Assembly: GCA_012934845.2 (NCBI GenBank)
Contig: WNNJ02003471.1
Location: forward strand, 124,001 to 188,000
Reading direction: 5' to 3'
Source: Pomphorhynchus laevis
Lineage: Eukaryota > Acanthocephala > Palaeacanthocephala > Echinorhynchida > Pomphorhynchidae
Length of the DNA: 64,000 bases
The translations under genes and the position numbers were made by a program. The stretch's first letter is position 1, and each line of letters opens with the position of its first letter. Positions 4,066 through 59,662 of this stretch are shown one piece after another. The notes beneath the pieces are model-generated. The model was not told where the DNA came from, searched no databases, and saw only the letters and a program-made list of their open reading frames with translations.

Positions 4066-4860
4066 CACCTGGATATCAAATAATTCCACGAACAACAGTA
4101 TTTCTATTTGAAGAAATTTATTGTAATTTATAGATTTGTTATTTTCTCACTTTATTTCTTATAAATTAATTTGAATAAAAACTTTAATTTTACAAGTACA
4201 TGCAATCAATATTTAAATCACAAGTGAAATTATTTAGTTATATAAATTTTTTTTCTTAAATTTAATTTAAATTATACCAGATTTTCTTTTTGCATCAAAA
4301 TTTATATTTATAAACATTATACATATTCCATAATCATTAAATATTGTAAATTTAAAATAACTAAATATTTTATCTATTTCATAAGAACATATTGTTTAAC
4401 TGTACTCAAAATTGATTATGTAATTTATAGTATATTCCAATAATAATACATATATTTTATTTAGTAATTCCCCACATTTTATTTTGTTTATCGTTTATAT
4501 TGTTTTATTAATTTGAGCAGATGAAAAAGAAATTGCAGTCATTTTTCAATGTGAAAAGCGACTGAAATATATAGTTCAAATTTTTAATTAAACAATTTTT
4601 ATTTAAAAATCTAATTAATATATCAAATTCCGTGGTATTCATTTAGTTGAAAGCATACTTTGACATTTTATATTTTACATTGAATTCTGATAATCGAAAT
4701 TATGCGTTAGAACTGCTTAGAAATAAATTATACTGTCAATAATATTTACTTCAATTTAATTAGATTTAATACCATTTTAGAAATCACAATTGTGATTTCA
4801 ATTAATTGACAATAGTAGCTTATCAATGTCAGATCAAATGCTAGCATTTGAAATATATAT

Positions 4861-5022
4861 GCTTTGTACAAGAATAAGCTACTTGATAATCAATTCTCAT
4901 CCGATGAAATACGTAATTAGCATTTATTTGGCAAAGGTGCTATTGCGACGAGGAATATTCGCCAAAATTTGATAGCAGAGCAGTTCCTCCTGATGGTATC
5001 TAATCATTATTCTGATACAACG
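4861..5022 (+). repeat. Dispersed repeat family S, copy 2
   Basis: A diverged copy of the family at 3,480. It keeps the gctttgtacaagaataag start, the cgatgaaatacgtaattagc core and the gttcctcctgatggtatcta end. It lies just beyond the 3' end of a minus-strand LINE-1a copy. Confidence 0.5.
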
Positions 5023-5104
5023 TCTATTTGACTCTTATTTTAAATTTTACTTTAAATTTTAACTTGACATATTGTAAATAATATACTTTGTATTAGAATA
5101 AGAT

Positions 5105-7108
5105 ATAATAATAAGATTTTCTTACTAATACAAAAACAGCGATTAATAAAGTGATTAAAAAGTCAGTCAAAAAAAAACAAGATTCTCTTTCTTCTCTAAT
5201 TTAAGTCTTCATACCGATATTACGGCCTCAAATTCAGAGGGATCTGAGACCCCCAACCTATCCAACACGCCGCCTTCCGACTGAACCACCCGGGGTCTCT
5301 CACCCCCCGAAGAGTCCAGTCGGTGCGGACTATGCTGGGTAAACGCGAGACGAGGAGCTTAAGAAACCTTAGCGTTTGCTCTGGGGGACGTCTTCTTGAA
5401 AAAAAGACTAATCCTGAGATAGCCCAAGTGCCCCCAAGGCGCACTTGGGTTTTCCCTTTCAACGACAGATGCTGAGCCCGTTTCAAGGCCCACCTAGCTT
5501 TCTTCAGGATACGTTCGAGTCTATCCAGGTCAGCTTTCGCCGACCAGTTCACCGTAACGGTGAACCCCAGGTATTTTACTCGACTTGTGAAGGTGGGAAG
5601 TGGTTCAGAGGCAAATATGGAGGAGAGCGCAGAGAGTGCTAATCTCTTAAGTTTCTGCTTTGTTGCAGGGGTGCCATGAAAGACAACCGCCTGCGATTTG
5701 GCGGAGTTTAAAATAAGATTGGATATGGATAACTGATCTTTTAATCTTAAAATAAACGGCTGATGTCAGAGACTACGTCTTAACATCTGTGTCCAGTAAA
5801 CAGGGCTGTGGTGTCATTAGCGTACACCACTAGACGTTGTTCGCGTTTAAATATTTTGAATAGATTAATAGAGGCAGCAAGATATAAGATAGGAGAAAGT
5901 GAGGAACCTTGAGGTACAACATTAATAGGGTAAAACTAACGTGCATCAGGGTAGTCTTCATAGTAAAATCGCTTGGTATACAGCAGGATCTCCACTATGT
6001 TCACAATTCTCGCTGGCAACCCGAGGGACCTGAGAGAAGAGATAACAAACGGAATGGAGATGCGGTCAAATGCAGCAGAAAAGTCAAGGAAAACAGCCAC
6101 ACCGAGTTAATGACTGTTCTCATGACAAAACCAATGCACTTCACCAACAACTGAATGGACCAAGTGACCTTTGACGAACCCATGGAAACCTCGAGGGATC
6201 AAATTACACGTACTTAAATGATCGCGGATTTTACGCGCAAGCGCTTTTTCGTAGATTGATACGAGGGCATTTTGAATCAAAATGGGTCGCAGATCTTTAA
6301 AGCATGAGCAGGATTTTTTCTAAGGAAGAAAAACACGCTTACTAATATTGATGCCTGCTACATCTTATGCGGAGGCTTTAAGCATTGTGACGGCCAACTC
6401 TCTTCTCTGATCAGCTGTCAAAACCTGATGGACCCGAGAAGAAAGTGGAGCGAAGTATTTTGAGGTGCCCAGGAGTGGACCCCAGGAGTTAAGGATATCC
6501 GTAACAGATAGATCCCTACTCCTGAAGTTACACAAAGGCGGAATAGGTTGAGGTGATTGAGTGGTTCCATAGTTGTGTAGGGCTAGTGACTCCTCCAAAA
6601 CTTTATCAAGGCCTACATTCCCTATCCAACCCAATGCTCTATCCTTCCAGCAAACAAACTTCTCCTTCTTGAAAATCTTCCAAAAGGAAGACTGAAAAGT
6701 ATTAAGACGAGCAATACTCGTCCTATCCCTACTCAACTGGAACCTATATCTAGTGCTCCAGTATTCATTCGAGAGAGTCTGTCTGGCGGAAACAGAGAGA
6801 TTAGGGAGGTTAATCAGTTTCGCTAGGACCTTGAGTTTCGTCGGAGTAGGATTGTATATACGACCTTTATAGGTAGTCGATAAAATCGCGGTAGCTTGCG
6901 AAAAGAGGTAGGTATTAAATTCGGTCAGACTCTCATTTCCTATTCTGGGAAATAGTTGGATAGCCGCTTGAAAGAAAGATACCCTGATCGGATCAAAGTG
7001 AAACCTTCTGCTAAGCAACATATCTTCCTCAATATCTTCCTCACATCCTGTGTGAGGAATATCTTCCTCACACAGGATGAGTGCATTCTTCACGGGCGGT
7101 AAAGATTT
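5105..7108 (-). mobile_element. 5'-truncated LINE-1a copy A (non-LTR retrotransposon)
   Basis: This minus-strand copy covers the ORF2 linker, RT and C-terminal region. The linker reads as one 249-codon frame (6,365-7,114), including SSFWKIFKKEKFVCWKDRA. The RT lies at about 5,640-6,350 and is broken by frameshifts. The C-terminal region lies at 5,220-5,640. The 3' end is a ttaataaaa-like signal followed by a short TTATTATTAT tail near 5,105-5,115. No endonuclease or ORF1 remains. Its 5' end abuts copy B in the opposite orientation, making a giant inverted repeat. The copy is inactive because the RT frame is broken. Confidence 0.85.
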
Positions 7109-7139
7109 GTGCATTTTTCACCGGCGGTGAAAAATGCAC
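7044..7139. repeat. Nested perfect palindromes at the LINE-LINE junction
   Basis: Two perfect hairpins lie between the head-to-head LINE copies. One has 16-bp arms at 7,044-7,059 and 7,064-7,079 around a 4-base loop. The other has 15-bp arms at 7,109-7,123 and 7,125-7,139 around a single base. Imperfect repeats of the same words flank them. Such snap-back structure suggests repair or template switching at the junction. Confidence 0.85.
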
Positions 7140-8900
7140 AAAACTCAAGACAAAACTCCGACAAATGCACAAAACTCAAGGTCTTAGCTAAACTGCTGAA
7201 CATCCCTAATATCTCTGCTTCCGCCAGACAGACCCTCTTGAATGAATACTGGCGCACCAGATATTGGTTCCAGCTGAGTGTGATAGGGCGAGTATTGCTC
7301 GTCTTAACCCTTCTCAGTCTTCCTTTTGGAAGATATTCAAGAAGGAAAAGTTTGTTTGTTGGAAGAATAGGGCTTTAGGTGGGATCGGTAGTATAGGCCT
7401 TGGAAAAGTTTTGGAGGAGTCACTAGCCCAACACAACTATGGAGCCACGCAATCACCTCAACCAATCCCGCCTTGGGGAGACTTCAGGAGTAGAGACTTA
7501 TCTGTCACAGATATTCTCAACGCCTGGGGGCCTCTTCCGGGCACCTCCAAATCCGTCGCTCCTATCTCTTCCCGTGACAGTCAGCTTTTGACAGCCGATC
7601 AAAGAAGGGAGGTGGCCGTCACAATGCTATTAGCCACCCCATCCGATGTGGCCAGGCATCAATATTAGTAGAAGGATTTTTTTACCTAAAAAGTATCCGG
7701 TCTGTTGTCCTAAAGACCTGCGGCCTATTTCGATTCAAAATTCCCTCGTCATGATCTACGAAAAAGCGCTTGCGCGTAGAATCCGCTACCATCTGAGTAG
7801 GCGAAATTTAATACCACCTGGTTTCCATGGGTTTGTCAAAGGTCGCTTGGTCCATTCAGTTGTTGGTGAAGTGCATTGGTTTTGTCAGAGAACAGTCATT
7901 AACTCGTTGTGGCTGTTTTCCTTGACTTTTCTGCTGCATTTGACCGCATCTCCATTCCTTTTGTTATCTCTTCTCTCAGGTCCCTCGGGTTGCCTGCGAG
8001 AATTGTGAACAGAGTGGAGATCCTGCTGTATACCAAGCGATTTTACTATGAAGACGACCCTGATGCACGTCAGTTCTACCCTATTACTGGTGTACCTCAA
8101 GGATCCCCACTTTCTCCTATCTTATATCTTGCTGCCTCTATTAATCTATTCAAAATATTTAAACGCGAACAACGTCTAGTGGTGTACGCTAATGACACCA
8201 CAGCCCTGTTTACTGGACACAGATGTTAAGATGCAGTCTCTGACATCAGCCGTTTATTTTAAGATTAAAAGATCAGTTATCCATATCCAATCTTATTTTA
8301 AACTCCGCCAAATCGCAGGCGGTTGTCTTTCATGGCACCCCTGCAACAAAGCAGAAAACTTAAGAGATTAGCACTCTCTGCGCTCTCCTCCATATTTGCC
8401 TCTGAACCACTTCCCACCTTCACAAGTCGAGTAAAATACCTGGGGTTCACCGTTACGGTGAACTGGTCGGCGAAAGCTGACCTGGATAGACTCAAACGTA
8501 TCCTGTAGGTGAGCCCTGAAACGAGCTCAGCATCTGTCATTGAAAGGGAAAATCCAGGTGGGCCTTTGGGGCAGTTGGTCTATCTCGGGATTAGTTTTAT
8601 TTTCAAGAGGACGTCCCCCAGAGCAAAGGCTAAGGTTTCTTAAGCTCCTCGTATCGCGTTTACCCAGCATAGTCCGCGCCGATTGGACTCTTCGGGGGGG
8701 GTGAAAGACCCCAGGTGGTTTAATCGGAAGGCGGCGTGTTGGATTGGTTGAGGGCTCAGATTCCTATGGATTTAAGGCCGTAAATGGAATAGAAGACTAT
8801 TACAGACTGAAGATAAAGTAGAAGAAGAGTGAACTTATTTTCTGTTTGTCTAACTCTTGTTTATTCCATTTGTTTTTTATTAATAAAATCTTATTATTAT
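7140..8900 (+). mobile_element. 5'-truncated LINE-1a copy B
   Basis: The plus-strand partner of copy A. Linker frame 7,264-7,668 is followed by an RT with fingers at 7,646-7,900, then a frameshift into VFLDFSAAFDRISIPF at about 7,910. GVPQGSPLSPILY lies near 8,090. The catalytic box reads VVYANDTTAL near 8,185, where a working RT would have an Asp-Asp pair, so a catalytic residue is lost. The C-terminal part runs to a GGCCGTAA word near 8,780, then a 3' UTR ending in AATAAAATCTTATTATTAT. It is inactive. Confidence 0.85.
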
Positions 8901-13500: not shown

Positions 13501-16500
13501 AGGTAATTTTCTGAAGATGCTAACAAAGATTAGCGAAATATCAATAATACATTTCTTCTTTTTTTGATCCAGCTCCAATAATTCTGTATCAATAATGGAT
13601 CATTATCAACTATTTTAAAATGATGTGTTTATACTATAAACACGGAAGAAACCAACGATGAAAACTCTACTTGAAGTCTATTAGTAGGGATAATTAACTT
13701 CCAATTGTCCTTATTATCATTCACATGAAAAAAGGACTATTGCAATAGTCGAAAATTTGTGAACAATAATTTTTTTATTCCTTTCGATGTTTAAATGCTT
13801 CTGAATAATTCAGATTGATATTTGTAATATTAACACGAATATTTAAATCATGCTTGCATCCAATGTTGATATTTTCTGTCAAAGTAGTTGTAAACTTGAG
13901 AATGTTATACCCTGCATGATCAGAAGGAAGCTGAAAATGAGCATTTGATGTACAACTATCTAAGAGCTTTTGTTGAATTTCATATCGTGGCGTCCGCAGA
14001 CAAATTTGGAAATCACATGAGTACATCATATTGTGCAGTTTCATCTATTATTCACCAAAGCAATATCAATCGTAAATAAATAATTTCAATGTTTATTTAG
14101 CTTTACAATTAACTTTACACCGCAAGTCAGCGATAGCAAGATTCAGTTTATTTCTAAATATGAATTGTGTGTTTAAGTCGTTCAACAAAACCAGTACTCA
14201 CATCGTTTAACATTGTATATTCAGTTCTGCATTTTGATAGATCACATTTACATTTGTCTAATTCACTTTTAGTCAATTCCAATTTTAATCTTTCTTCAAC
14301 AATGCATCTATACAAAGAACATATACAAATATAATAAAAAAAATCTTGAATTTACTCCTACCGTTTTTCCTCTTTTAACTGTTTAGCAGACAATTCTTTA
14401 AATGCATTCAATTTGCGCTGGACTGAATAAAGCTAAAAAATTAGCGAATTAACAAAATTACTGCTAAAATTTAATTTTTATCTTCAAACCTGCTCTTTAT
14501 AAATTAAGAGTGACTTTGACAGGCGACAGTTAGATTGGCGGTAATGACCCAATGTACCCTTGCTAGAAATTTAAGATAATTCTTTAAGTCAAATATTAAT
14601 TAATTGTTTGTGTTGAGTTGTCAATCTAAAGCGAAATTTATCTGACTTACCAATTATGGTCTTCCTGTAATTAAAATGCAAGTGAAATTGATTGTAGCGA
14701 TTGATATTATTGTTTAATTTACAAATTATATTTTATTCACAATATTGAACTCTTAATCGCTAGTGACCAAATAAAGCAAAAAATAACGGAACGAATAAAA
14801 TAATGAACGAAAATTTATTTCTGATTTATGTTATTACGGAACGATCAGGTGAAATTGAAAGGCCATATTCTTTTGTATTAGAATAAGCGGAAAATATTTA
14901 TGGATAATAAACGATGTGCTTTGTGTTAGAATAAGATACGAATAATAAATTCGGATAAAAAAATTGTATTAAAATAAAGTAGTTAATCAAATTTTATCAG
15001 AGAAAATACGTCATTAGCATGTATTCGGCTCTCTTCTATTTTGGGTCGAGGAATAGAGGTCGAAACATGATAACATATCAGTTCCTCATGATGACCTCTA
15101 ATTCTTATTGTTATACATAGTTTGCTATTTAGTCAATTCATCATAAATTTGACTTTATTTTAAATTTTAAATTCCTACTTTATACAAATATAAATTGTAT
15201 AAAATATAATATAATTATTTATCTTTATTTTTGATTTTACATATTATAAAATAGGTAGACTTACCCATTATGGTCTTCCTTTAATTAAAATGCGAGTGAA
15301 ATTGATTGTAGCGGTCAATATTATTATAATTCTGTATCAATAACGAATAATTATTAACTATTTAAAAATGATGTATTTATACAATAAACAGGGAAGAAAC
15401 CAACGATGAAAACTCTACCGATTTCGACGTGTGATAGTAGGAATAACTAACTTCCAATTGTCCTTATTTCATTCACTTAAAAAAGAAAAAATGAGGTATT
15501 TATACAATAAACAGGGAAGAAACCAACGATGAAAACTCTACCAATTTCGACGTGTGATAGTAGGGATAACTAAATTCCAATTGTCCTTATTTCATTCACT
15601 TGAAAAAGAAAAAATGATGTATTTATACAATAAACAGGGAAGAAACCAACGATGAAAACTCTACCGATTTCGACGTGTGATAGTAGGAATAACTAACTTC
15701 CAATTGTCCTTATTTCATTCACTTAAAAAAGAAAAAATGAGGTATTTATACAATAAACAGGGAAGAAACCAACGATGAAAACTCTACCAATTTCGACGTG
15801 TGATAGTAGGGATAACTAAATTCCAATTGTCCTTATTTCATTCACTTGAAAAAGAAAAAATGATGTATTTATACAATAAACAGGGAAGAAACCAACGATG
15901 AAAACTCAACCAATTTCGACGTGTGATAGTAGGGATAACTAAATTCCAATTGTCATTATTTCATTCACTTGAAAAAGAAAAAAAATGATGTATTTATACA
16001 ATAAACACGGAAGATACTAACGATGAAAACTCTACCGATTTTGACATGTGATAGTAGGGATAACTAACTTCCAATTGTCCTTATTTCATTCACTTAAAAA
16101 AGAAAAAATAAGGTATTTATATAAATTCCCTCGAAAAAAATTAATTTAATTTAAAGCGAATACTACGTTGCATTTATGTGTTTGAATTCGACATACCAAA
16201 GGAAAGCGAAACTCGATTGTATAACCGAGCAATTTTAACAACAATCCATTTACCAATTAGCTCCATAAATTTTGCATTGTGCATGTAAAGAGATTTAATA
16301 ATTAGATCACATCACTGAGTCGACGTATTTTACACGATATATAAAAAATAAAGAAAAATAATAAGTAATTATATAATATTTTATACAATGTATGTTTATA
16401 TCAAGTAAAAATAAAAAATTGAAATTTAAAATCAAAGTCAATTTTTATAAATGGACATATAAATAACAGGCGAAGTATAGGAGTAAGGATTATATGTCAT

Positions 16501-25449: not shown

Positions 25450-28135
25450 ACAAACAGAAAACGTGACCAATAAAACAATTTTTTATCAAAACCATTACTT
25501 CAGTTTACTTCAGACAATAGCAAAGGCTGGTGATTGAGATGCAAATTTTAAGAGAACATAACACCAAACTGCTAAGTTTCAAAACATAAGTTTTCATTAA
25601 TACGTTTTTACGACAGACACAATTTATAATAAATCGTTAATTATTTGAAACGTAAGCAGAATGTCAAAAAATATGGATTTATCTTTATATTATCTTAATA
25701 TTTTGGATTATATTTATACTATTTATGGTTTACAAAATATCTGAAACAAATCATTTGGTCGGCTTCATAAATTATCCTCGTGTGAATTCTTTAATCCTAG
25801 ATGCAGCACTGTACACTACAATCAGCGTAGGTGGACCTCATCAGCAGTGAGCCTACGCCTACCTTTCGTGTTTCGGTCCTTTAATGATCTGCTAAAATTT
25901 TCCTCTGCTGCCTTTCTGTAAAAACAAACGATACAGTTTGTAAGGAAACATTTCCACTTGTGCAAACTGTACGTTGTTTCCGTCTTTTGTAACAAAAAGA
26001 CGGAGATAGCACTACAGTTGCCGGAAACAACCGACAATCTGTCTTTTGAATTTTCTTGACAGGAAAACGGAATCTGCCAGGTTAATAGAATGAATAATTG
26101 CATACACGAGCGAGTATCATCATTTGGTCGGCTTCATAAATTATCCTCGTGTGAATTCTTTAATCCTAGATGCAGCACTGTACACTACAGGCAACTGTAG
26201 TGCTATCTCCGTCTTTTTGTTACAAAAGACGGAAACAACGTACAGTTTGCACAATAGGAAATGTTTTCCTTACAAACTGTATCGTTCGTTTTTACAGAAA
26301 GGCAGCAGAGGAAAATTTCAGCAGATCATTAAAGGACCGAAACACGGAAGGTAGGCGTAGGCTCACTGCTGATGAGGTCCACCTACGCTGATTGTAGTGT
26401 ACAGTGCTGCATCTAGGATTAAAGAATTCACACGAGGATAATTATTGAAGCCGACCAAATGATGATACTCGCTCGTGTATGCAATTATTCATTCTATTTG
26501 AAACAAATATTTGAAACCAAATTAATTTTAAGAGAACATAACACCAAACTGCTAAGTTTCAAAAGATAAGTTTTTATTAATACGTTTTTACGACAGACAC
26601 AATTTATAATAAATCGTTAATTATTTGAAACGTAAGCAGAATGTCAAAAAATATGGATTTATCTTTATATTATCTTAATATTTTGGATTATATTTATACT
26701 ATTTATAGTTTACAAAATATTTGAAACAAATATTTGAAACCAAATTAATTTTAAGAGAACATAACACCAAACTGCTAAATTTCAAATATTTTTTGAATAC
26801 TCAATGAGATGCTTAAACTTGCACTAATATTTCCCTAAATATTGCAAGGCATTTATAGAAAGCATTGAGAATACGGTATTTGTCGAAGCGATATATCAAA
26901 TAATATTTACAAAGAAGTTAAAAATATTAATAATTTTAATTAATAAATAAAATAATACAATATTTTAGTTGAATTCTTTGGAATCCAGATGATATTAATT
27001 AAAATACAATTGTAAATACAACTTGGTATTATTGTACAAACGCATAACAATTTATCAAAATTGACAATTAATCTAACATCAAAATACAAATGCCACAATA
27101 TGGATATATTTTATAGATAAAATATGTTAAAATATTTGGAAAATTTTAAAAATATCAATGTAGCACTATTAAATTAACAGCAATGAAGAACAAAATGTGT
27201 TCATGTTTATCTACATTACACGTGGACTATCTGTACCACTTATGTGTCAGAGCGAATCTATCACCCGTCATGGTACTTGCACGAACTAGACAATCATCCC
27301 AGGCGACCAAAAAGTGTTCATGCGTGTAAGCTCATTCAAAACAAAGGATAAAGTTTATAATTTCAAAATTATATATTATTACTAATTTTGATAGGACTAA
27401 TCCTTGTATGACACAATTTCAATTGCATTTACATCAACGATTTTAAAAATGCTATTACATATTTTAAACACTCGTTTAGATATCAAAATTGAATTTAATT
27501 TAAAATATACTACCAATGTTTAAACGATAAACCATTGATAAATTTTATAAAAATGAATGAAAACAAAGTATTTACTAGTGATCGAGTAATCACTATGCAT
27601 ATTTGGCTGAAAGATAAGACTACCGTATGATATTATGTTCGCAAAATTATAAATTTCAATTTTAAGTTTTGTTTAAAACGACAATAATTTTAAATCTTCA
27701 AAACAAAGCACTTCGACCGATAACTTTTGTAGTTAGGTAATGTAGATATTAGCCGCTTACCAGTGTCTCTAACAATTCAATCATTAAGATTCACACTTTA
27801 AATGTCCACATTAAAAGTTACATTTGCATAGCTGAACAAAATAAGATTCGAACATGATTCCAGTGAGTATTAAAAACGGTTTTGTTCTGTATCAAACTTA
27901 AAAATTGAGCTTAAGAAAGAGCAATACTTTATAGTAATTGCTAAGGTTAGTGTTTTATCTAAATGTGTTGAGCAAATAATAATTACAAAAATCAAAACGA
28001 CAAAATCACATATTGGATAGAAGATATTTCTTTGCACATACTATATAATGAAAAATGACGTTTTTATCTATAATTGGTGCATACGTTCTAAAATTATTTC
28101 AAATTATTTAAATCAATTTGAAATTATTTTAAATG
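25450..28135 (+). repeat. Long inverted repeat, left arm
   Basis: Reverse complement of 62,150-63,885, 34 kb away, with very high visible identity over about 1.7 kb. The left arm differs by one extra tandem unit of about 220 bp (R unit, at about 25,546 and again at about 26,525) and by the 747-bp foldback insertion. No protein is encoded. Subterminal inverted words (27,762-27,815 against 28,665-28,722) suggest a non-autonomous DNA element. Confidence 0.8.
25752..26498. mobile_element. Foldback element insertion, 747 bp
   Basis: The order is b (25,752-25,820), c (25,821-26,022), spacer, a (26,084-26,120), b (26,121-26,189), then c inverted (26,190-26,392), b inverted (26,393-26,461) and a inverted (26,462-26,498). 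It is flanked by the 10-bp duplication TGAAACAAAT (25,742-25,751 and 26,499-26,508). The arms are nearly identical. Short frames in the c arms are by-products of the symmetry, and no transposase is present. It sits inside an R unit of the long repeat, so it inserted after that duplication. Confidence 0.85.
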
Positions 28136-43760: not shown

Positions 43761-43904
43761 GTATAACATTTTTATGGTTAATTTTATTATCATAATAATA
43801 AGATTTTGTTAAAAACAAAAATAAGGGTTAATGGAAGACATTACATAACCAATTCAAATCATCTTCATCTTCACCATGTACCATGTAGTCTTCATGGCAC
43901 ACCT

Positions 43905-46230
43905 TTACGGCCACAGATCCAGGGGGATCTGAGCCCCCAACCGATCCAACACGCTGCTTTCCGACTTAACCTCCCGTGGTCTTTAACCCCCCCCCGAAGA
44001 ATCCAATCGGTGCAGACTATGCTGGGTAAACGAGAGACGAGGAGCTTAAGAAATCTTAGCTTTTTCTCTGGGGGACGTCCTCTCAAAAAGAAGACTAATC
44101 CCGAGATATCCCAAGTGCCCCAAAGGCCAACTTGGGTTTTCCCTTTCAATGACAGATGCTGGGCCCGTTTCAGGGCCCACCCAACTTTTTTCAGGATACG
44201 TTTAAGTCTATCCAGGTCGGCTTTCGCCAACCAGTTCACCGTAACGGTGACCCCCAAGTATTTTACACGACTTTTGAATGTGGGGAGTGGTTTAAAGGCA
44301 AATATGGAGGAGAGCGCAGAGAGTGCTGATCTCTTAAGTTATTGCTTTGTAGCAGGGGTGCCAGTAAAAACGACCATCTGCAATTTTGAGGAGTTTAAAA
44401 CAAGATTGGATTTGGGTAATTGGTCTTTTAATCTTAAAAAGAAGCGGCTGATGTTAGAGACTACGTCTTTACACCTGTGTCCAGTGAACAGGGCCGTAGT
44501 GTCATCAGCATACACCACTAGACGTTGTTCGCGTATAAATGTTTTGAATAGGTTAATGGAGGCAGCAAGATATAAGATAGGAGAGAGAGGTGAACCTTGA
44601 GGAACACACATAATAGGGTAGAACTGACGTGCATCAGGGTCGTCTTCATAATAAAATCTCTTGGTGTACAGCATGATGTCCACCCTGTTCACAATTCTCG
44701 CAAGCAACCCGAGGGACCTGAGAGAAGTGATCACAAAAGGAATGGAGGTGCAGTCAAATGCAGCAGAAAAGTCAAGGAAAACAGTTACAACTAGACGATG
44801 GCTATTCTTCCGACATAATTGCTCTACCTCACCTACTGCTGAATGAACCGAGCGACCTTTGACGAACTGATGAAAACCTGGAGCGGTCACATTACGCCTA
44901 CTACTTAAATGGCCGCAGATTTTACGCGCAAGTGCTTTTTCGTAAATCCACACGAGGGCATTTTGAATCGAAATGGGTCGCAGGCCTTTGGGACATGATC
45001 AGGATTTAACCTTAGGAATAAAAACTCTCTTACTAATATTGATGCCTGCTACATCGGACGGCAAGGCTAAAAGCATTGTGACGGCTACCTCCCTTCTATG
45101 ATCGGCTGTCAAAAGCTGACAGACCTGAGAAGAAAGTGGAGCGAAGGATTTGGAGGTGCCCGGAATTTGACCCCAGGAGTTAATGATATCCGTAACAGAT
45201 AAATCCCTACTCCTGAAGTCCCCCAAAGCGGGATTGGTTGAGGTGATTGCGTGGCTCCATAGTTGTGTAGGGCTAGTGACTCCTCTAAAATGTTTTCAAT
45301 GTCTATCTTACCTATCCAACCCAATGCCTTATCCTTCCAACACACAAACTTCTCCTTCTTGAAAATCTTCCAAAAGGAAGTCTGAGAAGGGTTAAGACGA
45401 GCAATACTCGCCCTATCCATACCAGCTTGAACCTATATCTAGTGCTTCAGTATTCATTCGAGAGGGCCTATCTGGCGGAAGCAGAGAGATTAGGAAGGTT
45501 TAGCAATTTAGCTAGGACCTTGAGTTTTGTCGGAGTGGGATTGTAAATGCGACCTTTATAGGTCGTCGATAGAATTGCGGTAGCTTGCGAAAAGAGGAAG
45601 GTATTACATTCGGTTAAGCTCTCATTTCCTATTTGGGGAAAGAGTTGGATAGCCGCCTGAAAGAAGGCCACTCTGATCGGATCAAAATGAAACCTCCTTC
45701 TAAGCAACGTATCCTCCTCTATCTGCCAACGAATAAGGTCATGATATGTTGACAATTGTTGACGCGACTACTCTGTGCAGAGGGGTTTAAGCAACCACCT
45801 CGAGTGGAGCAGTAAAATGTCGAGGATAAAATTTGTAGAAGTGCAATGAAAGGTGGGGGAAGGTGGTTTGTGAATAAAATAACCGTTCCTAGCTCTGCGA
45901 AGTGCTGCGTTGATCCAACGACCAGTTCTGTTGTTGAAGTCCCCAAGTATCATGTCATAGCCGCTGTCGATAATACCATCCAGGATGTCACGGTTCTTGT
46001 GAATCTCCCCTGGACGAATGTAGACATTGGCTAGACTGAGGCGTTTACCGTTTTTACAGAGTGAAACTACCAAACAAGACAGGGCTGGACACGAGAAATT
46101 TAATAGGACAGAGGACCTTAAGGAGCACTTAACTAAGGTCAAGTGTCCTTGAGATGAAGAGGAGTGAGGAGGAGTTATATACGGAGTGAAGTGGGTGGAT
46201 ATATGCTGGGAATAAATCAAGTAATGTCAT
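43905..46230 (-). pseudogene. LINE-1a copy C ORF2 (endonuclease and RT)
   Basis: The AP endonuclease at 45,768-46,220 has SLANVYIRPGEIHKN and YDMILGDFNNRTGRW, carrying the catalytic Asp and Asn. The linker is at 44,999-45,755. The RT at 44,339-44,953 has VFLDFSAAFDCTSIPF, the PQGSPLSPILY motif and an intact VVYADDTTALFTG box. The C-terminal part with FSRKAACWIGWG runs to about 43,905. Frameshifts at about 45,760 and 44,960 and near 44,330 break it, although the RT palm alone is intact over 204 codons. Confidence 0.82.
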
Positions 46231-48700: not shown

Positions 48701-49053
48701 TTCGTGCTTTTATTTACCTTTGTACCTATAAATTATGTGTTCATTAAATTTAAGTTAACACTAATGTAATCACTTGAAAAATGTAAACTTAGATATTTTA
48801 TATACATATTTCGCTAATTAAATGCTGAACATTTTCCATTCAGGCATCGGGCTGACTGGAAGAAGTAGCAAACATCGCGTGACAATTCTGGAATTCGAAA
48901 ATAATGTTACAGTTTATAATCGTGTTATAAACAGTTATGCGTAAGGTTTTTTTTCAGGTCATTGTGTGAATAAAGTGAGTTTACTCACCTTGTTCAAGCT
49001 AAACTTTACAACATTATCAATTTCTGCAAACGGAAACAGTTGTTTGAACAATA

Positions 49054-49413
49054 ATGCACGGGTTTGGAGGGGGCTTCGGAGGAGGAGGTGGTGGCTTCGG
49101 AGGATGTGGATGCGGCGGATGCTGTTGTAAGCCAACATGCTGTCAAAATCAATGCTGCAATAATAATTGTTGTCAACAGAACAACCAGCAAAACTGTTGC
49201 AATCAGAACCAATGCCAGCAATGTCACAATAAGCAACACAAAAATAATAGCTGTTGCAAAAGGTATTATCACACGACAACTTGTTGTTCAAGTAACTGCT
49301 GTGATAATTGTTGTTGTGACTGTGGACAATGCTGTCAAGGATGTTGCCATAACCAAAACTGCTGTAACAATTGCTGCAATAATTGCTGCAATAGTAATTG
49401 CTGTTGCGGATAG
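49054..49413 (+). CDS. Small Cys/Gly-rich protein 3
   Basis: An intronless 119-codon frame from ATG (MHGFGGGFGGGGGGFGGCGC) to TAG, with AATAAA at 49,467-49,472. The Gly-rich head is followed by CCCKPTCC and CCQQNN-type repeats, then the shared core RYYHTTTCCSSNCCDNCCC-DCG, and a tail of CCNN repeats. The core matches the gene at 24,774, so the two belong to one family despite different heads. There is no signal peptide. Low-complexity Cys/Gly proteins often become disulphide-linked structural material. Its cell type cannot be told from sequence. Confidence 0.72.
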   Translation: MHGFGGGFGGGGGGFGGCGCGGCCCKPTCCQNQCCNNNCCQQNNQQNCCNQNQCQQCHNKQHKNNSCCKRYYHTTTCCSSNCCDNCCCDCGQCCQGCCHNQNCCNNCCNNCCNSNCCCG

Positions 49414-49685: not shown

Positions 49686-50420
49686 GTCTGTACGCTGATG
49701 GTACCACATCCTTGTTCACTGGACACAGGTGCAAAGACGTAGTCTCTGACATCAGCCGTTTCTTTTTAAGATTAAAAGATCAGTTACCCAAATCCAATCT
49801 TGTTTTAAACTCCGCCAAATCGCAGGTGGTAGTCTTCCATGGCATCCCTGCAACAAAGCAGAAACTTAAGAGATTAGCACTATCTGCCCTCTCATCAATT
49901 TTGACTAATCAACAACTCTCTACCTTCACGAGTTTAGTAAAATAAATGGGGTTCACCGTTACGGTGAACTGGTCGGCGAAAGCTGACTGGATATACTTAA
50001 ACGTATCATGAAGAGAGCTAGATGGGCGCTGAAACGGGCTCAGCATCTGTCATTGAATGGATTAACTGAGGTGCCCCTCTGGGGCATTTGGGATATCTCG
50101 GGATTAGTCTTCTTTTCGAGAGGACGTCCCCCAGAGCAAAGGCTAAGGTTTCTCAAGCTGCTCATCTTTCGTTTACCCAGCATAGTCTGCCTTGACTGGG
50201 CTCTTCGGGGAGTGAAAGACCCAGGGTGGTTCAGTCGAAGAGCGGCATGTTGGATTGGATGGATGGCTCAGATCCTACCGGACCTGAGGCCGTAATGAAG
50301 AAGACGATAAGAAGATGATAAATAAAGAATTTAGACTAAGTTCTTTATTTTTCTTGTTTAACTGAACTTATTATTTATTTATCCTGTATATTTTATATTC
50401 TTAAGAAAGTCTATTATTAT
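49686..50420 (+). mobile_element. 5'-truncated LINE-1a copy D
   Basis: Starts abruptly at the RT catalytic region (VYADGTTSLFTGHRCKD, with the second Asp mutated to Gly). It then covers the RT thumb and C-terminal region (49,712-50,295) with two frame breaks. It ends in GAGGCCGTAATG, a 3' UTR and a CTATTATTAT tail. Confidence 0.82.
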
Positions 50421-53739: not shown

Positions 53740-53748
53740 TATAAATTT
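53740..53748 (+). promoter_or_regulatory. Likely TATA box of the Gly-Cys gene
   Basis: TATAAATTT lies in a slightly GC-richer patch. About 23 bases on, GCAGTT could be the initiator. That gives a 5' UTR of about 60 bases before ATG 53,826. Confidence 0.45.
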
Positions 53749-53825
53749 TAAATTTTATTGTAGCAGTTATTCAAAGCAAAAAATATAGAAAACAAAACGT
53801 CTTACTTAATTTTAACTATTTCAAA

Positions 53826-54128
53826 ATGACAGCAGGCTGTTGTGGATGTGGCTGCGGCTGCGGGTGTAACTTCGGATGCGGTTGTGGCTGCGGATGTGGC
53901 TGCGGTTGTGGTAGCGGTTGTGGCTGCGGATGTGGCTGCGGATGTGGCTGCGGATGTGGCTGCGGATGTGGCTGCGGATGTGGCTGCGGATGTGGCTGCG
54001 GATGTGGCTGCGGATGTGGCTGCGGTTGTGGCAGCGGTTGTGGATGCGGATGCGGTTGTGGATGCGGATGTGGATGCGGATGCGGTTGTGGATGCGGTTG
54101 TGGATGCGGATGTGGATGCGGATGCTGA
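53826..54128 (+). CDS. Gly-Cys dipeptide repeat protein
   Basis: An intronless 100-codon frame: MTAGCCGCGCGCGCNFG, then almost pure Gly-Cys with two Ser and one Asn-Phe interruption, ending at TGA. The coding DNA is a 12-bp tandem repeat GGATGTGGCTGC (best between 53,925 and 54,020), so unit number is likely polymorphic. Other reading frames of the repeat are long only because of the repeat. AATAAA lies at about 54,257. Gly-Cys repeats are known from insect high-cysteine chorion arms and from male-germline Cys-rich proteins. Here the role is unknown, but heavy disulphide cross-linking is expected. Confidence 0.7.
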   Translation: MTAGCCGCGCGCGCNFGCGCGCGCGCGCGSGCGCGCGCGCGCGCGCGCGCGCGCGCGCGCGCGCGCGCGSGCGCGCGCGCGCGCGCGCGCGCGCGCGCGC

Positions 54129-54691: not shown

Positions 54692-55049
54692 AATTGGGAA
54701 TGAGAGTTTGACCAAATTTAATACCTACCTCTCATCGCAAGCCACCGTGATACTATCGACTACCTATAAAGGTCACATATACAATCCCACTCCAACAAAA
54801 CTCAAAGTCCTAGCTAAAATGCTTCACCTTCCTAATCTCTCTGTTTCAGCCAGACACGCCCTCTCGAATGAATACTGGAGCACTATATATATGCTCCAGC
54901 TGAGTATGGATAATGCAAGCATTTCTTGCCTTAGCCCTTCTCAGTCTTCCTTCTGGAAGATATTCAAGAAGGAGAAGTTTGTCTGTTGGAAAGATAGAGC
55001 ATTAGGTTGGATTGGTAAAATAGGCTTTAATATAGTTTTGAAGGAGTCA
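54692..55049 (+). mobile_element. LINE-1a copy E, internal linker fragment
   Basis: Only the ORF2 linker region remains (NPTPTKLKVLAKMLHLPNLS, SSFWKIFKKEKFVCWKDRA), in one open frame that runs on into unrelated sequence after GGAGTCA at about 55,049. It has no 3' end. It abuts an RNase H remnant from another element. Confidence 0.75.
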
Positions 55050-55126: not shown

Positions 55127-55438
55127 TAATAAACAAGTCTTTGTGGATGCCACCCGGAATCAAATTGGAATTGTTGGAGCGGAAGGGGAGATACACATAT
55201 GTATTACCATATGATCTTCTGATCTGTGAGGCTGAACTACTTGCCGCCTGATGTGGTCATAAGCTATACCCAGACGCAGAAATATACACCGACAATAAAG
55301 GAGTATATTATTCAGTTCTCAAAGGGAGGGCAAAAACGGTGCCTATGGGTAACCATTTCTTGCAGGACATGTATGGTACGTCTATACGATGGATACCCAC
55401 TGATACTAATCTGGCTGACATACCCAGTCGCTGGTAAA
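55127..55438 (+). pseudogene. RNase H domain remnant of an RT element
   Basis: Two frames carry a retroelement RNase H in catalytic order. VFVDAT lies near 55,140. After a frameshift, EAELLAA (followed by a stop) is near 55,228, YTDNKGVYY near 55,275 and NLADIPSR near 55,415. These supply the D-E-D-D residues. The style, with a TDN box and a terminal (A)DxPSR, is that of DIRS-like or pararetroviral RTs rather than of LINEs. The frameshift and one stop show it is dead. Confidence 0.55.
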
Positions 55439-55439
55439 A

Positions 55440-55882
55440 ACTGTCCCCTCCTTTTTGCTTGTTTTTTACCACACAACAATACAGCTATTTCCCACGTAGC
55501 TACGTGTCTTCCGTGTCGATACTATATAACTAGAATCACACGCATTGTCCTTTCGTCTGACAGCGAAAGCAGTTTCGATGAAACTGCTTTAATAAAACTG
55601 CAAGAAACAGCAGTTTATTAAAAATTACTGATGTCTTGCTTCCTGCTACTGGCTATGCTTGCACAAGGTTTTAGGAGCATATTTCGAGGTATTTATACAC
55701 TTTGAAAAATACACGTGATTTCGTGTGGGAAGTAAGCTGTGCTCCGTGCAAGTATTTTGGTAGAAGACAGTTGATAGAGTTATGAATATAGCTGCTTATC
55801 AAAGATATCATTCCCAATATTTTTAAATATTTTTAAAAATTATCTATCAATTGTTAAATTACAAAATTTAATTGCAAAATTA
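55440..55882. other. Linker between RNase H remnant and chimeric frame
   Basis: One frame continues to 55,621, ending SSDSESSFDETALIKLQE, of unknown nature. The frame of the downstream chimera is open from 55,778 (after a TAG at 55,775), but that 35-codon lead is AT-rich, lacks ATG and looks non-coding. Confidence 0.35.
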
Positions 55883-58030
55883 TTGAGGGATACAGTCTTT
55901 CAAGCAGCGGTTTCTGCTGGATTGAGGGTGGCAAAGGAGGTACCCAACCTTATTCGTGGTTTGCGAGAGAGACCGGCGGACATTCTATTTTATAAGGACC
56001 CTCCTTTAGCAGTTGATTTTGCCGTAACTAACCCTCAACAAAATGCTTATATTTCCATGGCTTCTGAGATCCCTGGCTATGCCGCAAGCAAGTATGCCAC
56101 CTGTGTCAAGGAAAGGAAATATAAACGCAAATTAGAGGAGAATGGATACAGTTTTACGGCAGCAGTTGTTGAAACTTACGGAGGATGGAACCCCCAAGGG
56201 GAAAAGCTAATTCGTTTCATTGCTCGTTCTATGTCATGTAGAAACGGTACCCCGTATTGTAGCACAGCGGGTCAGTTATTTCAGCGCTTGTCCGTCGCAC
56301 TGATGAGAGGAAATGCTAAAGCGATCCTCAAAAGTCTTGACGAGATGGGCCAACCCTTACTAGAGAAAAGTCTTGGATTTTGTGACGACCCATCTCCGCG
56401 ACTCTTTTCTTTGAGCAACCTTGCACAGCCCGAGGCCCAGTCAGTTGAGATAGTTCATGACTCCAATATTCGGTCAGCTTCCGTCGTCAAAGGCGACCAT
56501 TCTGAGGTTGACATGCCTGTCCTGCAACTCATGTCTCCACGACGACCTTCGGCATATCACTCAACATCTAAACAATCAAATAATGCTTCTTTGTCACTTC
56601 AGCAATCACCAACAATTAAGGAGGGGTTGATATCGCTTCAACCGAATATTGATCAACATACCTATGGAACTGCAACATTATCCAGATTAACACTTGCACC
56701 ATTTTTGAACCTTCCATTTGGAAATTCAAATTGTACTGAAATACAACAAAATATTTTTGGCACTATTCAGACAAATCCACATGCAGTTCAAAACCTTCTA
56801 AGTAATAATTTGGCTCAAAGACTTATGAGTAATCCTGCATTGCTTAGTTCAATTAAGCTTAACAATCCACAAATGCAAAGAGTGAGGGAGCAGAACCACG
56901 AGGTTTCACAATTCGTTAACAATCCGGATTTAATGTGTCAAACAATGGAAATGATTCGTATTCCTACAACTATACAGGAAATTACGAGAAACCATGACAG
57001 AGCCCTGATTAACCTTGAGAGATTACCGAGCGGATATAAAGTTCGACAGAGAATTTATCGCGATTTTCAAGAACCAATGCTTAATGTGGCACATGAGCAG
57101 TTTGGCGATAACCCTCTGAATACTTATTCTAGTTCATCTGGTACAGCTAACACTAGTCAAGTAGGAACTGAAAATACAAACCTCCTGCCAAACCCGGTGG
57201 CATCTCAGAATACTACATTTCAAATCGATTCGTCTAGTTCATATGTATCTAATTCAAACCGTTTAGAGTCGCCTTTGCAATCTACGTCAAGCGAAAACAC
57301 TAATCGGTATTCTACGATGAACCCTCAACAATTATTAGTAGTCGATGCTGAAAATCCTCTCATGTTATTCGACATGTTGCGGGCATCCAGTTTTAACCCA
57401 AATATGAATAATTCTCTTTGCGATCCTGGTATTCTACTTAATCTGCTTAAGATTCTTCTTAATCTGCTGCGTACATATGAATTTATACAGGACGAAGGAC
57501 AAAGAGAACAAGTACATCGTGTAATTCATGAGTTTATGAGTCAGTGGCCAATACCTGAAATTTGTGCTCTATGCACAAATACTCGAGCATTGAGGACGAT
57601 TGTACAAATTCTAAAGAATCTAATTCGTCTTAGGGACACATCCCCACAAGTATATTCACAGTTGATATCTTCAAATATAAGCGGTCTAGTCGATAATCAA
57701 ATGAATAGTCAACCTACTTCATCTGATGTGGATTCTTTTCGATCACCAAGCAATAGACAAACAGCTTATGCAACAACAGTATTTCAAAATTTACAATACT
57801 CAAATCAAGATTATACTGCTTCGTTGTTTCAACCATTAGATCGTCTTCATCTCCAGCAACATCGGCCGACAAATCAACAACCAAACCAAACTCAAGAACA
57901 TCTTTATGCATCCGAACTTGTACAAATGCAGACATTGGGATTCCATAGCCGTGATACTAATCTGGAAGAGCTTGCTGCATCTATGGGGGACGCAAAAATG
58001 GCTGTGGAACGTAATGAAGATTTTGATTGA
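55883..58030 (+). CDS. Chimeric frame: retroelement C-terminal module fused to a ubiquilin
   Basis: 715 uninterrupted codons. Residues 1-150 resemble the module that follows RT in many animal elements: RERPADILFY, LAVDFAVTNP, AAVVETYGGWNP, QRLSVALMRGNAKAIL, with PD-(D/E)XK-like Asp positions. Residues 280-410 are ubiquilin STI1 repeats (NPDLMCQTMEM, RNHDRALINLERLPSGY, FQEPMLNVAHEQFGDNP). Residues 505-590 match the second STI1 pair. Residues 675-712 are a UBA domain (LGFHSRDTNLEELAASMGD). The N-terminal UBL domain of true ubiquilins is absent. Ubiquilins carry ubiquitinated clients to the proteasome. There is no intron, so the ubiquilin part is probably a retrocopy. The first in-frame ATG is codon 59 (56,057), so either translation starts there, an upstream exon exists, or the N-terminal part is only 5' relic. 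GC content drops at about 56,570, near the likely junction. Confidence 0.72.
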   Translation: MRDTVFQAAVSAGLRVAKEVPNLIRGLRERPADILFYKDPPLAVDFAVTNPQQNAYISMASEIPGYAASKYATCVKERKYKRKLEENGYSFTAAVVETYGGWNPQGEKLIRFIARSMSCRNGTPYCSTAGQLFQRLSVALMRGNAKAILKSLDEMGQPLLEKSLGFCDDPSPRLFSLSNLAQPEAQSVEIVHDSNIRSASVVKGDHSEVDMPVLQLMSPRRPSAYHSTSKQSNNASLSLQQSPTIKEGLISLQPNIDQHTYGTATLSRLTLAPFLNLPFGNSNCTEIQQNIFGTIQTNPHAVQNLLSNNLAQRLMSNPALLSSIKLNNPQMQRVREQNHEVSQFVNNPDLMCQTMEMIRIPTTIQEITRNHDRALINLERLPSGYKVRQRIYRDFQEPMLNVAHEQFGDNPLNTYSSSSGTANTSQVGTENTNLLPNPVASQNTTFQIDSSSSYVSNSNRLESPLQSTSSENTNRYSTMNPQQLLVVDAENPLMLFDMLRASSFNPNMNNSLCDPGILLNLLKILLNLLRTYEFIQDEGQREQVHRVIHEFMSQWPIPEICALCTNTRALRTIVQILKNLIRLRDTSPQVYSQLISSNISGLVDNQMNSQPTSSDVDSFRSPSNRQTAYATTVFQNLQYSNQDYTASLFQPLDRLHLQQHRPTNQQPNQTQEHLYASELVQMQTLGFHSRDTNLEELAASMGDAKMAVERNEDFD

Positions 58031-58039
58031 TTTTTTTAT

Positions 58040-58195
58040 ATTATTTTTTATAATTGTAATCGTCAAAATTCAATTACATGTTATATTGCGATTACTGCGT
58101 AAAATTAATACGAATGTAATATCGGAACCTTATGTATGACTCACAAAGTTATTAACAAACGTTAATTAAAAATGTCTGATAAATACAAATAGAAA
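58040..58195. other. 3' flank of the chimeric frame
   Basis: AT-rich. No canonical AATAAA close to the stop; a possible ATTAAA lies near 58,164. Confidence 0.3.
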
Positions 58196-58378
58196 TTTTT
58201 AAATTTCCGGGAACTATCATGTATAGTTGAAGGACAAGAAAAATCATTTTGATATTTCGATAGTTACTACTAGCATTTTCAGAAATTTTTTGAAGATGCT
58301 AGCAACTAGCGAAATATCAAAATGATTTTTCTTGTCGTTCAACTATAACTGATTGATCCTGGAAATTAAAAAATTTAA
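58196..58378. repeat. Inverted repeat of PLE-type ends
   Basis: Arms of about 85 bp (58,196-58,283 and 58,284-58,378) share aggacaagaaaaatcatttt and gatatttcg with few mismatches. The right arm contains the hammerhead-like motif, so two element ends face each other. Confidence 0.75.
58290..58314 (+). ncRNA. Hammerhead-like motif in the inverted pair
   Basis: TTGAAGA (first base C to T), T, stem GCTAG/CTAGC, then GAAATATC. Close relatives are at 13,511 and 61,725. Confidence 0.38.
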
Positions 58379-58379
58379 A

Positions 58380-59390
58380 TACAGATCAGAATGGATATAT
58401 TTTTAACATTATATAATGATTATTAATAATTAGATATATAATTATATATAATAATTATTATAAAATAATCAATTTATTTAAAAATATAACAAACATAAAT
58501 AATTTAGACGATTGAAACAATAAAATTACCTTTTGACATTAATCAACAGCTTAAATTGTGTTTTTATATTCGAATTATTTATCATTTGCTAATTGTCAAC
58601 AAAAATACGATAATTTATTGATTTCCACCGATAAATAATGTTGAATTGTTGTATTTATATCTGAATAGTAATTAGATATAAAGTTGATACAACTTTATTT
58701 TTTTACAACGAAGAGTTAAGATTTTTTTATCAAATGATTGATTAAAACTGTTAGTTTATGGATATTTATTATAATTAGTATCTATTGGTACGACATTATT
58801 TTTGTTTGCTAGATTTAGTGTAATAAAACGTTTTTCTTTGTCTTGTAGTTTAGGATAAAATATTGTTAAAATATTAAATTTACAATTTGCAAATCAACAA
58901 AATATTATTAAAAATAAATTTGAACTAATAAGCGAACAAATTTCTATCAGTAATAAACAATATGTCTTTGAAACAAGACACACTAGATAATCACATTACT
59001 TTGTTTTAGCGGTAATATAATTTATGTCAGAAATAATGAAACTTCGTTTATTAATAATCTACTAAATACGACTATTTTTCTGCAAATTTTCAAATTATGA
59101 ATATTTGTAAATATTATATTGATGATGAAAAGTTAAATCTTTTCAAATATCTTCAGAATATCAAAAAGTAAGAAAAAACTACAAACAGCAATTTATCCAA
59201 TTTAATTTTTATTTAATTAAAAGATGTATTTACAAAATAATCTAAGCGAAAAATATTGTGCTAAAAAATAAAGAAATATAAAAAATAAAATAAAATAAAA
59301 ATAAAAATAAAAGTCAAATAAAAAATAAAAAATAAAGCAATAAAATATATTAGCATTAGTAATAAAACAATTCGTTTCAATATTACGAAT
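58380..59390. other. AT-rich spacer
   Basis: No gene. Near 59,147 an element-end word (atcttcagaatatcaaaaag) recurs in the form seen at about 60,043. Confidence 0.4.
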
Positions 59391-59392
59391 TA

Positions 59393-59662
59393 AGGAAGGT
59401 AGACAAATACGAAGAACGTGTACGCAGAATCGAACGCGGATCATTCATTCCGTTAATATTTTCGATAGTGGGAGGTTTTGGCAGTGATGCTGGAAGATGT
59501 ATCAAGACGATTGCTACGGCGATGTCACAGAGAAACACTTTAACTTACTCGGACAATATTACGAAGATAAAGAGGAGTTTGTCTGTTAAACTTGCGCGTA
59601 CATCATCTGCTTGCATGCGCGCGGCACGGTCGACCCTTGGAAGGGCGACTTTTTCAACTTAA
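59393..59662 (+). pseudogene. C-terminal module of an RT-bearing element, relic 2
   Basis: One open frame to TAA reads KYEERVRRIERGSFIPLIFS, IVGGFGSDAGRCIKTIATAM, LSVKLARTSSACMRAARS. It matches relic 1 (34,660) in the order: basic Tyr-Glu-Arg helix, SFxPLIFS strand, GG-G loop, then a helix. It lacks the upstream Asp-containing part and any RT. Confidence 0.6.

Follow-up and report, generated by a model that had tools for sequence, protein, structure and literature searches.

How does a retroelement protein come to be continuous with ubiquilin in a single open reading frame (ORF)? The question is raised by positions 55,883 to 58,030 of a 64,000-nucleotide stretch of Pomphorhynchus laevis DNA, which we will term the window. 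The original prediction, made from the letters of this stretch, described a reverse transcriptase (RT)-associated C-terminal module that runs without a stop into the STI1 and ubiquitin-associated (UBA) domains of ubiquilin, with the ubiquitin-like (UBL) domain replaced. It suggested that a ubiquilin tied to an element protein would be a new link between a retroelement and the proteasome. We propose instead that the window holds, very probably, a 5'-truncated copy of a long interspersed nuclear element (LINE) with a restriction-like endonuclease (RLE), and that the ORF of this LINE family ends in a UBL-less ubiquilin of the host, captured by splicing and then retrotransposed. The evidence, as read from sequence, is the family of copies, a full-length ORF, a ubiquilin part that starts at an exon boundary and lacks the host's introns, LINE copies that carry a GT in place of the ubiquilin, subfamilies of different age, and a second join of the same kind.

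The open frame is real. On the plus strand, no stop occurs from 55778 to 58030, which gives 750 codons from stop to stop and the predicted 715 if counted from 55883. The remaining five frames across the same interval contain 37-61 stops each, and base-shuffled controls (n = 500) contain 46 stops on average and never an open run of more than 164 codons, so the length of the frame is far beyond chance. Its parts are as follows.

55778-55882, plus strand: AT-rich flank (17% GC), open by chance and not part of the LINE; in full-length copies the RT, the Cys-His knuckle and the RHDS motif stand here.
55883-56338, plus strand: 5'-truncated RLE domain, LINE ORF residues ~814-965, with the motifs PAD..D, KERKY (KX2KY) and GGW (GXW).
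56339-56629, plus strand: C-terminal linker of the LINE, residues ~966-1062 (97 codons), which reaches the join also in ubiquilin-free LINE copies.
56629-56630, plus strand: fusion point, where a donor-like site of the LINE meets the first base of a ubiquilin exon.
56630-58030, plus strand: intronless, UBL-less ubiquilin tail including the stop codon, 61% identical to the P. laevis ubiquilin P0001 (gapped BLASTP).
56786-56992, plus strand: STI1-type domain (Pfam PF23195, 'UBQLN1', E = 5.2e-18).
57893-58009, plus strand: degenerate UBA-like segment (PDB 1vej, E = 0.0067; 2jy5, a ubiquilin-1 UBA structure, E = 0.022).
58031-58038, plus strand: 3' end of the window copy; in the comparison of 3' flanks, identity to young copies ends a few bases past the stop.

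The LINE sequence starts abruptly at about 55,883, where it abuts the 17%-GC flank. The border there is a 5' truncation of the element. As the first in-frame ATG is at 56,057, the truncated window copy alone cannot encode the full endonuclease. RT (PF00078) proteins have a C-terminus homologous to the upstream half (E = 1.9e-13), the product of 55883-56338 is 34-36% identical to the RT proteins P0010-P0013, and a profile built from the window and these relatives can be aligned with the RLE in R2 structures. The border with ubiquilin was expected within 56,500-56,650 and lies, to within a few bases, between 56,629 and 56,630. For the downstream half, the best protein match is P0001, a UBL-bearing ubiquilin of P. 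laevis. The STI1 domain of the prediction is clear and the UBA domain is only weakly recognisable: five solved UBA chains match at E = 0.0067-0.066 (the best, 1vej, was deposited as RIKEN cDNA 4931431F19), and the Pfam search of the frame gave no UBA match in the tail. In the same search the tail did not reach PF17830, although P0001 does, and the frame contained no UBL domain. LINE sequence occupies the place that the UBL domain has in P0001, as had been predicted.

To find further copies, we compared the 715-residue product with the whole assembly (249.4 Mb in 3,242 contigs). The best 62 of 2,516 candidate places were scored, so copy numbers are lower bounds. All 62 places, the window's own included, span the join between LINE and ubiquilin, and in 49 the match includes all of residues 2-709. 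Of the 62, 48 are at least 98% identical (43 without and 5 with a stop) and 14 are 88-96% identical, 13 of the latter with stops. Open frames among the scored places reach 1,538 amino acids. The DNA of the junction is identical over 481 bp in 28 of 40 scored places (the best 40 of 230 candidates), again including the window. Copies on contigs C5 and C1873 carry the same stops, and some contigs may be haplotype duplicates. An impression taken from gene models alone, that the repeat comprises only ~150 ubiquilin residues, was overturned by this search.

The family changes how the window locus is to be read. The GC content drops from ~50% to 38% near 56,540, as might be expected if an unrelated LINE end had landed by chance, in frame, beside a processed ubiquilin pseudogene. 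However, dozens of places that are at least 98% identical have the same junction, and old copies have it too, which refutes a chance nested insertion; we give it practically no weight. Nor is there much to be said for a host fusion gene at this locus, selected for a link between retroelement and proteasome, apart from the open frame itself. The copy is 5'-truncated, it has no ATG before 56,057, its UBL is lost, and many near-identical copies lie elsewhere. On the strength of the truncation and the family copies, we reject this exceedingly improbable explanation: the frame is no single fusion gene but one copy of a retrotransposon family. The original prediction also left a choice between a recent insertion and a maintained fusion. 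Recent insertion is borne out, and the fusion is kept in the lineage of the element and not, as far as seen, by the host. Because 28 of 40 junctions are identical over 481 bp, openness at the window locus needs recency alone, which rules it out as evidence of selection there.

Full-length copies reveal what the window copy has lost. We fetched 20 copies, which were chosen and are not a random sample: the 10 with the longest frames among the 48 young ones, and 10 of the 14 older ones. A complete ORF of 1,528 codons is retained in 6 of the 10 young copies (L009-L014). (Of the others, L017 has 1,529 codons after a late frameshift in the ubiquilin half, L015 has one stop, and L016 and L018 are 5'-truncated.) The protein of L009 consists, in order, of a C2H2-like finger, the RT, the knuckle, the RHDS motif, the RLE, the LINE linker, and the UBL-less ubiquilin. 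The RT (RVT_1, PF00078, E = 1.5e-18, with YLDD) and the ubiquilin domain (PF23195, E = 1.3e-17) are thus in one ORF, with the predicted RT-associated module placed after RT and knuckle, and the best PDB matches of this ORF are R2 proteins. The zinc finger, read by eye, is CAVC-X10-HLRVH at residues 8-26. The knuckle is CRRC-X9-H-X3-C, a spacing (CX2CX9HX3C) that the relatives P0011-P0013 share. The RLE motifs are RPAD..VDF, KERKY and GGW in the window, and the RH upstream of them is IRHDS in L009; P-A-D replaces the P-D of the RLE motif, in the window and its relatives alike. RLE-encoding LINEs are described as having a Cys-His knuckle and an RLE with KX2KY and GXW, and their knuckle, CX2-3CX7-8HX4C, has the same total length as that of L009 with the H shifted (PMC5678591). 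Judging by its domain order, the element is an RLE-encoding LINE similar to the R2 group. The first ~1.9 kb of L016 contain a further related LINE (44% protein identity over the RT, frame broken) beside the ubiquilin-LINE copy, so this clade is diverse in the P. laevis genome.

The full-length copies share a 5' leader of ~100 nt, their likeness ends within a few tens of nucleotides past the stop, and their flanks differ from copy to copy. In the old copies L029, L030 and L031 (84-87% nucleotide identity), LINE and ubiquilin are still contiguous. Subfamilies of different age can be seen by sequence: the changes that copies in gene models have in common indicate subfamilies that arose one after another, and the window copy belongs to the youngest of them. 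A tree of 17 rows unites the copies in a clade with support 100 and recovers the youngest group as a clade with support 99; the remaining order is weak (15-70). The family is probably still active.

An intron-containing parent ubiquilin with a UBL domain, which the original prediction named as something to look for, is present on contig C1375. The exons for the UBL match between 75559 and 68394, and they are followed by an 8.2-kb intron, the exon VSQQPN..QRVIE, a 7.4-kb intron, the exon QNPE..NLE, a 41-bp intron, and the exon SLPGG..TNSS. It is with the first base of the VSQQPN exon, the first exon after the UBL, that the ubiquilin of the LINE begins. The parental introns after QRVIE, NLE and TNSS are missing from the LINE tail (two of them were sequenced through; the far side of the third was not reached). 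Exons after TNSS were not found in 3.5 kb more of the parent locus, and our comparison of tail and parent covers the fetched exons and so excludes the parental stop, the UBA exon and the 3' untranslated region. Over these exons, 124 of 168 residues and 441 of 504 nucleotides are identical.

At the join, both sides look like splice sites. The start of the parent exon reads tatcttag/GTATCGCAACAACCG, where the slash marks the border (acceptor tcttag/GTATCGC), and the join in the old copy L030 reads GTCG/GTATCG. Old copies are the most parent-like here: L030 and L031 have GTATCG as in the parent, and L038 has GTATCC. We also searched the genome for the end of the LINE followed by a donor. Among the matches listed (about 100 of 142), at least four places (L048-L051) are free of ubiquilin. 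Their identity to the element is 81-88% along 162, 257, 536 and 687 nt. The likeness ends at nucleotide 3184 of the reference, two bases short of the join (3186). The four places then go on as GTCG/GTAAATTTG (in L051, GTAG/GTAAATTTG) into a shared, different tail, with a donor-like GT at the join (TCG/GTAAAT). L049 and L050 align only over the last part of the LINE. The tails of L048, L049 and L051 contain stops as read, so these copies are old. With up to 3 mismatches, the uncaptured join has 10 matches genome-wide, 9 of them with GT, a count that leans to GT because the pattern contains it. The placement of the join is ambiguous by up to 3 nt, since LINE and exon both continue GTA, and the chosen placement fits both the GT and the AG, which we regard as putative splice sites. 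That the two halves occur apart, an outcome which the original prediction counted as refuting, was partly observed, in that ubiquilin-free LINE copies exist. As these run on past the join, they explain the origin of the fusion and do not refute it.

We suggest the following course of events. A LINE transcript would have been spliced from a donor in its C-terminal coding region (GTCG/GTAAAT) to the acceptor of the first post-UBL exon. The host introns would have been spliced out, and the in-frame chimeric RNA would have been reverse transcribed, presumably by the LINE's own protein, and inserted elsewhere. The new element would in this way have swapped its own C-terminal tail for the STI1-UBA part of ubiquilin and then amplified in successive subfamilies.

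A sister LINE appears to have undergone a similar event. It lies in the next intron of the ubiquilin gene in the same orientation, is 41% identical over LINE residues 8-1001 with a broken frame, and shares part of the linker, up to about residue 1001.

L042 (C1375), reverse complement, 2333-7530: sister LINE copy within a ubiquilin intron, fused in frame to an intronless carbonyl reductase.

The sister LINE normally ends in a C-terminal tail of ~420 amino acids, which is found at 73 other scored places and has no Pfam match above the cut-off. In L042 this tail breaks off at CCGATCG, from where the reading frame leads into an internal exon of a carbonyl reductase gene (the cargo matches the carbonyl reductase 1 structure 1wma at E = 4.9e-31). 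Other sister copies read CCGATCG/GTGAGA (two) or CCGATCA/GTGAGG (a third) at this point. The join in L042 is CCGATCG/CAAGAAATG and the carbonyl reductase gene has gattttttag/CAAGAAATG, with one G common to both sides. A 21-mer with the sister donor has 124 matches at up to 2 mismatches, as against 0 for the reversed control, and the ~100 matches listed are all exact. The captured reductase lacks two introns and its first segment (position 30 of the profile is the first to be matched), just as the captured ubiquilin lacks its introns and its first segment, the UBL. In both cases, then, the host part begins at the first base of an exon, the element side has a GT, and the downstream host introns are gone. 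Together, the two joins are strong evidence for capture mediated by splicing, and both joins appear to have been made in this way.

Several points weigh against this account. First, target-site duplications are not established: a 17-nt repeat occurs at both flanks in 1 of the 12 copies with both ends readable, and chance alone gives up to 14 nt when flanks are paired wrongly. (For the window copy, comparison of the flanks as far as 58,195 gave no repeat of at least 8 nt, and a single 9-mer at 58,370 looks like chance.) Second, GTAAAT agrees only moderately with a splice donor. Third, the carbonyl reductase chimera is present as one copy, and this copy is broken, with a stop in the reductase and an interrupted RT frame, and the genome search found no second contiguous copy of the captured reductase stretch. 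Fourth, both joins have 1-3 nt common to the two sides, so that their exact placement was chosen and not forced. Fifth, no member of the LINE family was found in the 8.2-kb intron upstream of the trapped exon, so the progenitor insertion was lost, has decayed, or never existed (as in trans-splicing).

The fourth point is what microhomology would give if the RT of the LINE had jumped between ubiquilin mRNA and LINE RNA during target-primed reverse transcription. LINE RTs are known to switch templates, and a switch to mRNA would account for the missing introns without any splicing by the LINE. But template switching would not put the break at a host exon boundary and at a GT of the LINE, and both captures have both, in frame. 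We consider it very unlikely.

The fifth point bears on where the splicing took place. LINE RNA could have been trans-spliced onto the acceptor of the ubiquilin pre-mRNA, in which case no intronic LINE copy is needed. Spliced-leader trans-splicing occurs in the rotifer/acanthocephalan group. On the other hand, sense-oriented LINEs do sit in introns of this gene, as the sister LINE in the next intron does, and are ready substrates for splicing in cis. Trans-splicing is thus a minor possibility that deserves mention, and we infer that the splicing was in cis, from a LINE copy that lay in a ubiquilin intron.

Does the captured tail do anything? To address this, we counted the differences fixed between two groups of fetched copies, the young one (L009-L018) and the oldest (L025-L028). 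In the enzymatic domains there are 17 nonsynonymous and 18 synonymous fixed changes (dN/dS ~0.29, four rows summed, with the linker, at 3:0, excluded), and in the ubiquilin tail there are 25 and 7 (dN/dS 1.0; P = 0.022 against the enzymatic domains, Fisher test). The private changes of old copies, which are mostly neutral, number 144:61 in the enzymes (RT, knuckle linker and RLE; the N-terminal row has none) and 115:46 in the tail. Fixed and private changes differ in the enzymes (P = 0.018) and not in the tail (P = 0.52, Fisher test). So, of the two halves, the enzymatic one is constrained as judged from these substitutions (dN/dS ~0.3), and the ubiquilin one hardly is. The comparison of tail and parent exons (504 nt) gives a dN/dS of 0.79 (NG86) or 0.86 (YN00), and on the branch that leads to the window copy, amino acids were replaced as radically as at random.

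These numbers are what one would expect if the tail were a pure passenger whose frame is open only because active copies are young, and we take this to be a serious possibility, if somewhat short of an even chance. Against it, the 489 codons should have accumulated 5.8 stops (from the codon table) to 10.2 stops (from the rate of private stops) on the LINE branch, and no stop is present in the tails of the six intact copies (P = 0.003 to 4e-5). This expectation is scaled from 168 aligned codons, with the LINE branch assigned 35 of the 46 changes that P0003 polarises; restricted to those 168 codons, the deficit has P = 0.14 to 0.03. Also, the sister family retains its ~420-amino-acid tail, of which four stop-free matches sit in open frames of more than 1,500 amino acids (by their length, these should hold RT and RLE). 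We do not use the lack of frameshifts as evidence of constraint: 10 old copies have 0 in the ubiquilin half and 16 in the enzymatic part, a count that is biased by selection through protein matches.

On these comparisons the residues of the tail seem to drift almost freely (~0.8-1.0) while the frame is needed, or at least screened. Free residues together with a deficit of stops are more in keeping with a tolerant tail than with a conserved shuttle factor. Probably, then, this is a tolerant C-terminal tail of the LINE protein, which may bind clients or ubiquitin; this is the least certain part of our account. The proposed link with the proteasome is not shown, given that the UBL is lost and the ubiquilin residues are near-neutral. 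Without the UBL, which docks to the proteasome, the tail would at most protect or chaperone the ribonucleoprotein (RNP) of the LINE, not deliver it to the proteasome.

A more far-reaching reading, which we put forward only tentatively, is that an in-frame donor near the end of the ORF serves as a device for acquiring domains, and that the UBL-less tail is a decoy or chaperone against clearance of the LINE RNP by ubiquilin and the proteasome. Any sense insertion in an intron might then splice host exons onto the LINE, and mobile chimeras could found new families; the swapped tail would be ubiquilin in one family and carbonyl reductase in a single copy of another. Alternatively, small RNAs derived from the LINE might repress the host ubiquilin gene, as proposed for the Drosophila LINE TART-A, which captured part of nxf2 and is described as acting by piRNA-mediated repression (PMC7785250). 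This would need no constraint on the protein, but the tail lies in the sense orientation within the ORF and only 441 of 504 nucleotides are identical to the parent exons, which leaves action at the RNA level rather improbable.

LINE-borne ubiquilin also appears in the annotation. Besides P0001, a stretch of the tail is contained in at least 17 P. laevis gene models (P0002, P0004-P0009 and P0014-P0023), as two protein searches showed. In these it is fused to unrelated exons, with methyltransferase, PI3/4-kinase-type and tetraspanin Pfam domains and, by eye, an Hsp90-like stretch. In 6 of the 17 models, the stretch of tail ends at the same residue, where the window DNA goes on with GTGGCA. Several models thus seem to use a putative donor within the tail, CCG/GTGGCA. 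These models are either artefacts of prediction or real exonisation, and their number is a warning for annotators. Another locus, C725:37261-45059, has tandem ubiquitin-like repeats (11 matches, 34-37% identical to the ubiquilin UBL) and is perhaps a polyubiquitin locus.

The neighbourhood of the chimera is rich in repeats. Directly behind it, at 58193-58376, is a palindrome with 77-nt arms (88% complementary) and a 30-nt loop that resembles a miniature inverted-repeat transposable element; a partial relative lies at 13505-13557. At 59390-59662 (plus strand), 1.4 kb downstream of the chimera, is a second, different RLE fragment (KVDKYEER.., 26% identical to the first over 77 amino acids), which has its own stop and no ubiquilin and is another 5'-truncated end of an RLE LINE. 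Copies of a different LINE, ~81-89% alike, are at 5204-8798, 43892-45727, 49689-50420 and 54692-55049; the region at 43.9-46.2 kb has an RVT_1 match and, below the cut-off, a weak match of the endonuclease/exonuclease/phosphatase type. Between two LINE fragments, at 55252-55434 (plus strand), is a fragment that reads IYTDNKGVYYSVLKGRAKTVPMGNHFLQDMYGTSIRWIPTDTNLADIPSRW, which by eye we take to resemble the RNase H end of an element of the long-terminal-repeat type. Cys/Gly-rich repetitive open frames occur at 53745-54128 (CGCGCG..., 12-nt period) and 49048-49413 (FGGCGCGGCCC...), both on the plus strand. Finally, a 1.6-kb inverted repeat pair (26524-28134 and 63768-62158) is 99.4% identical, so its duplication or transposition must be very recent.

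To our knowledge, the gain of new protein domains by LINEs is usually known only from end products. In P. laevis, the host donor gene, uncaptured copies with a GT, captures of graded age, and a second capture are all in one genome, so the mechanism of capture is directly testable. If the tail is functional, the LINE would be a retroelement with a UBL-less ubiquitin-receptor segment of its own.

How does the ubiquilin LINE compare with known systems? Like R2, R4, Hero, NeSL, Utopia and CRE, it has a single ORF with a zinc finger, an RT, a putative Cys-His knuckle, and an RLE with KX2KY and GXW. Unlike LINEs of the R2 group, its ORF runs ~560 amino acids past the RLE (LINE linker and ubiquilin), and its knuckle is CX2CX9HX3C. 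Among the papers listed by our literature searches, judged by title and abstract, we found no LINE with a ubiquilin tail, and no listed title reports that an autonomous LINE captured exons in frame at its C-terminus (Repbase and subscription papers lay outside both searches). The nearest cases differ in several ways. NeSL and Utopia-1_TSP, which are RLE LINEs, have a domain of a ubiquitin-like pathway, an Ulp1-like protease (PMC4640811), but this protease is N-terminal, whereas the tail described here is a C-terminal ubiquitin-receptor or chaperone segment with an identified host parent. SVA_F1 (with MAST2) and the chimpanzee SVA_D-STK40 joined a host exon by splicing and were then amplified (PMC6139936). 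SVA is non-autonomous, however, and has a first exon joined to its Alu-like region (PMC6139936), while here an autonomous LINE had its own ORF lengthened in frame at the 3' end by several host exons. TART-A, discussed above, is similar in that a LINE holds a fragment of a host gene; it differs, as far as PMC7785250 describes it, in that our LINE has its host part fused in frame to the C-terminus of its protein, at a putative splice junction. In bdelloid rotifers, a related animal group, Penelope elements have N-rich ORF segments and mobilise host genes (PMC3846280). They share with the ubiquilin LINE the long extra coding stretches in a retroelement ORF, but Penelope is of the GIY-YIG type and moves genes with their introns, and the introns have been removed in the ubiquilin LINE. 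Lastly, host UBQLN2 restrains PEG10, a domesticated gag-pol element (PMC10076021), and our case is the reverse of this: the element itself encodes ubiquilin sequence.

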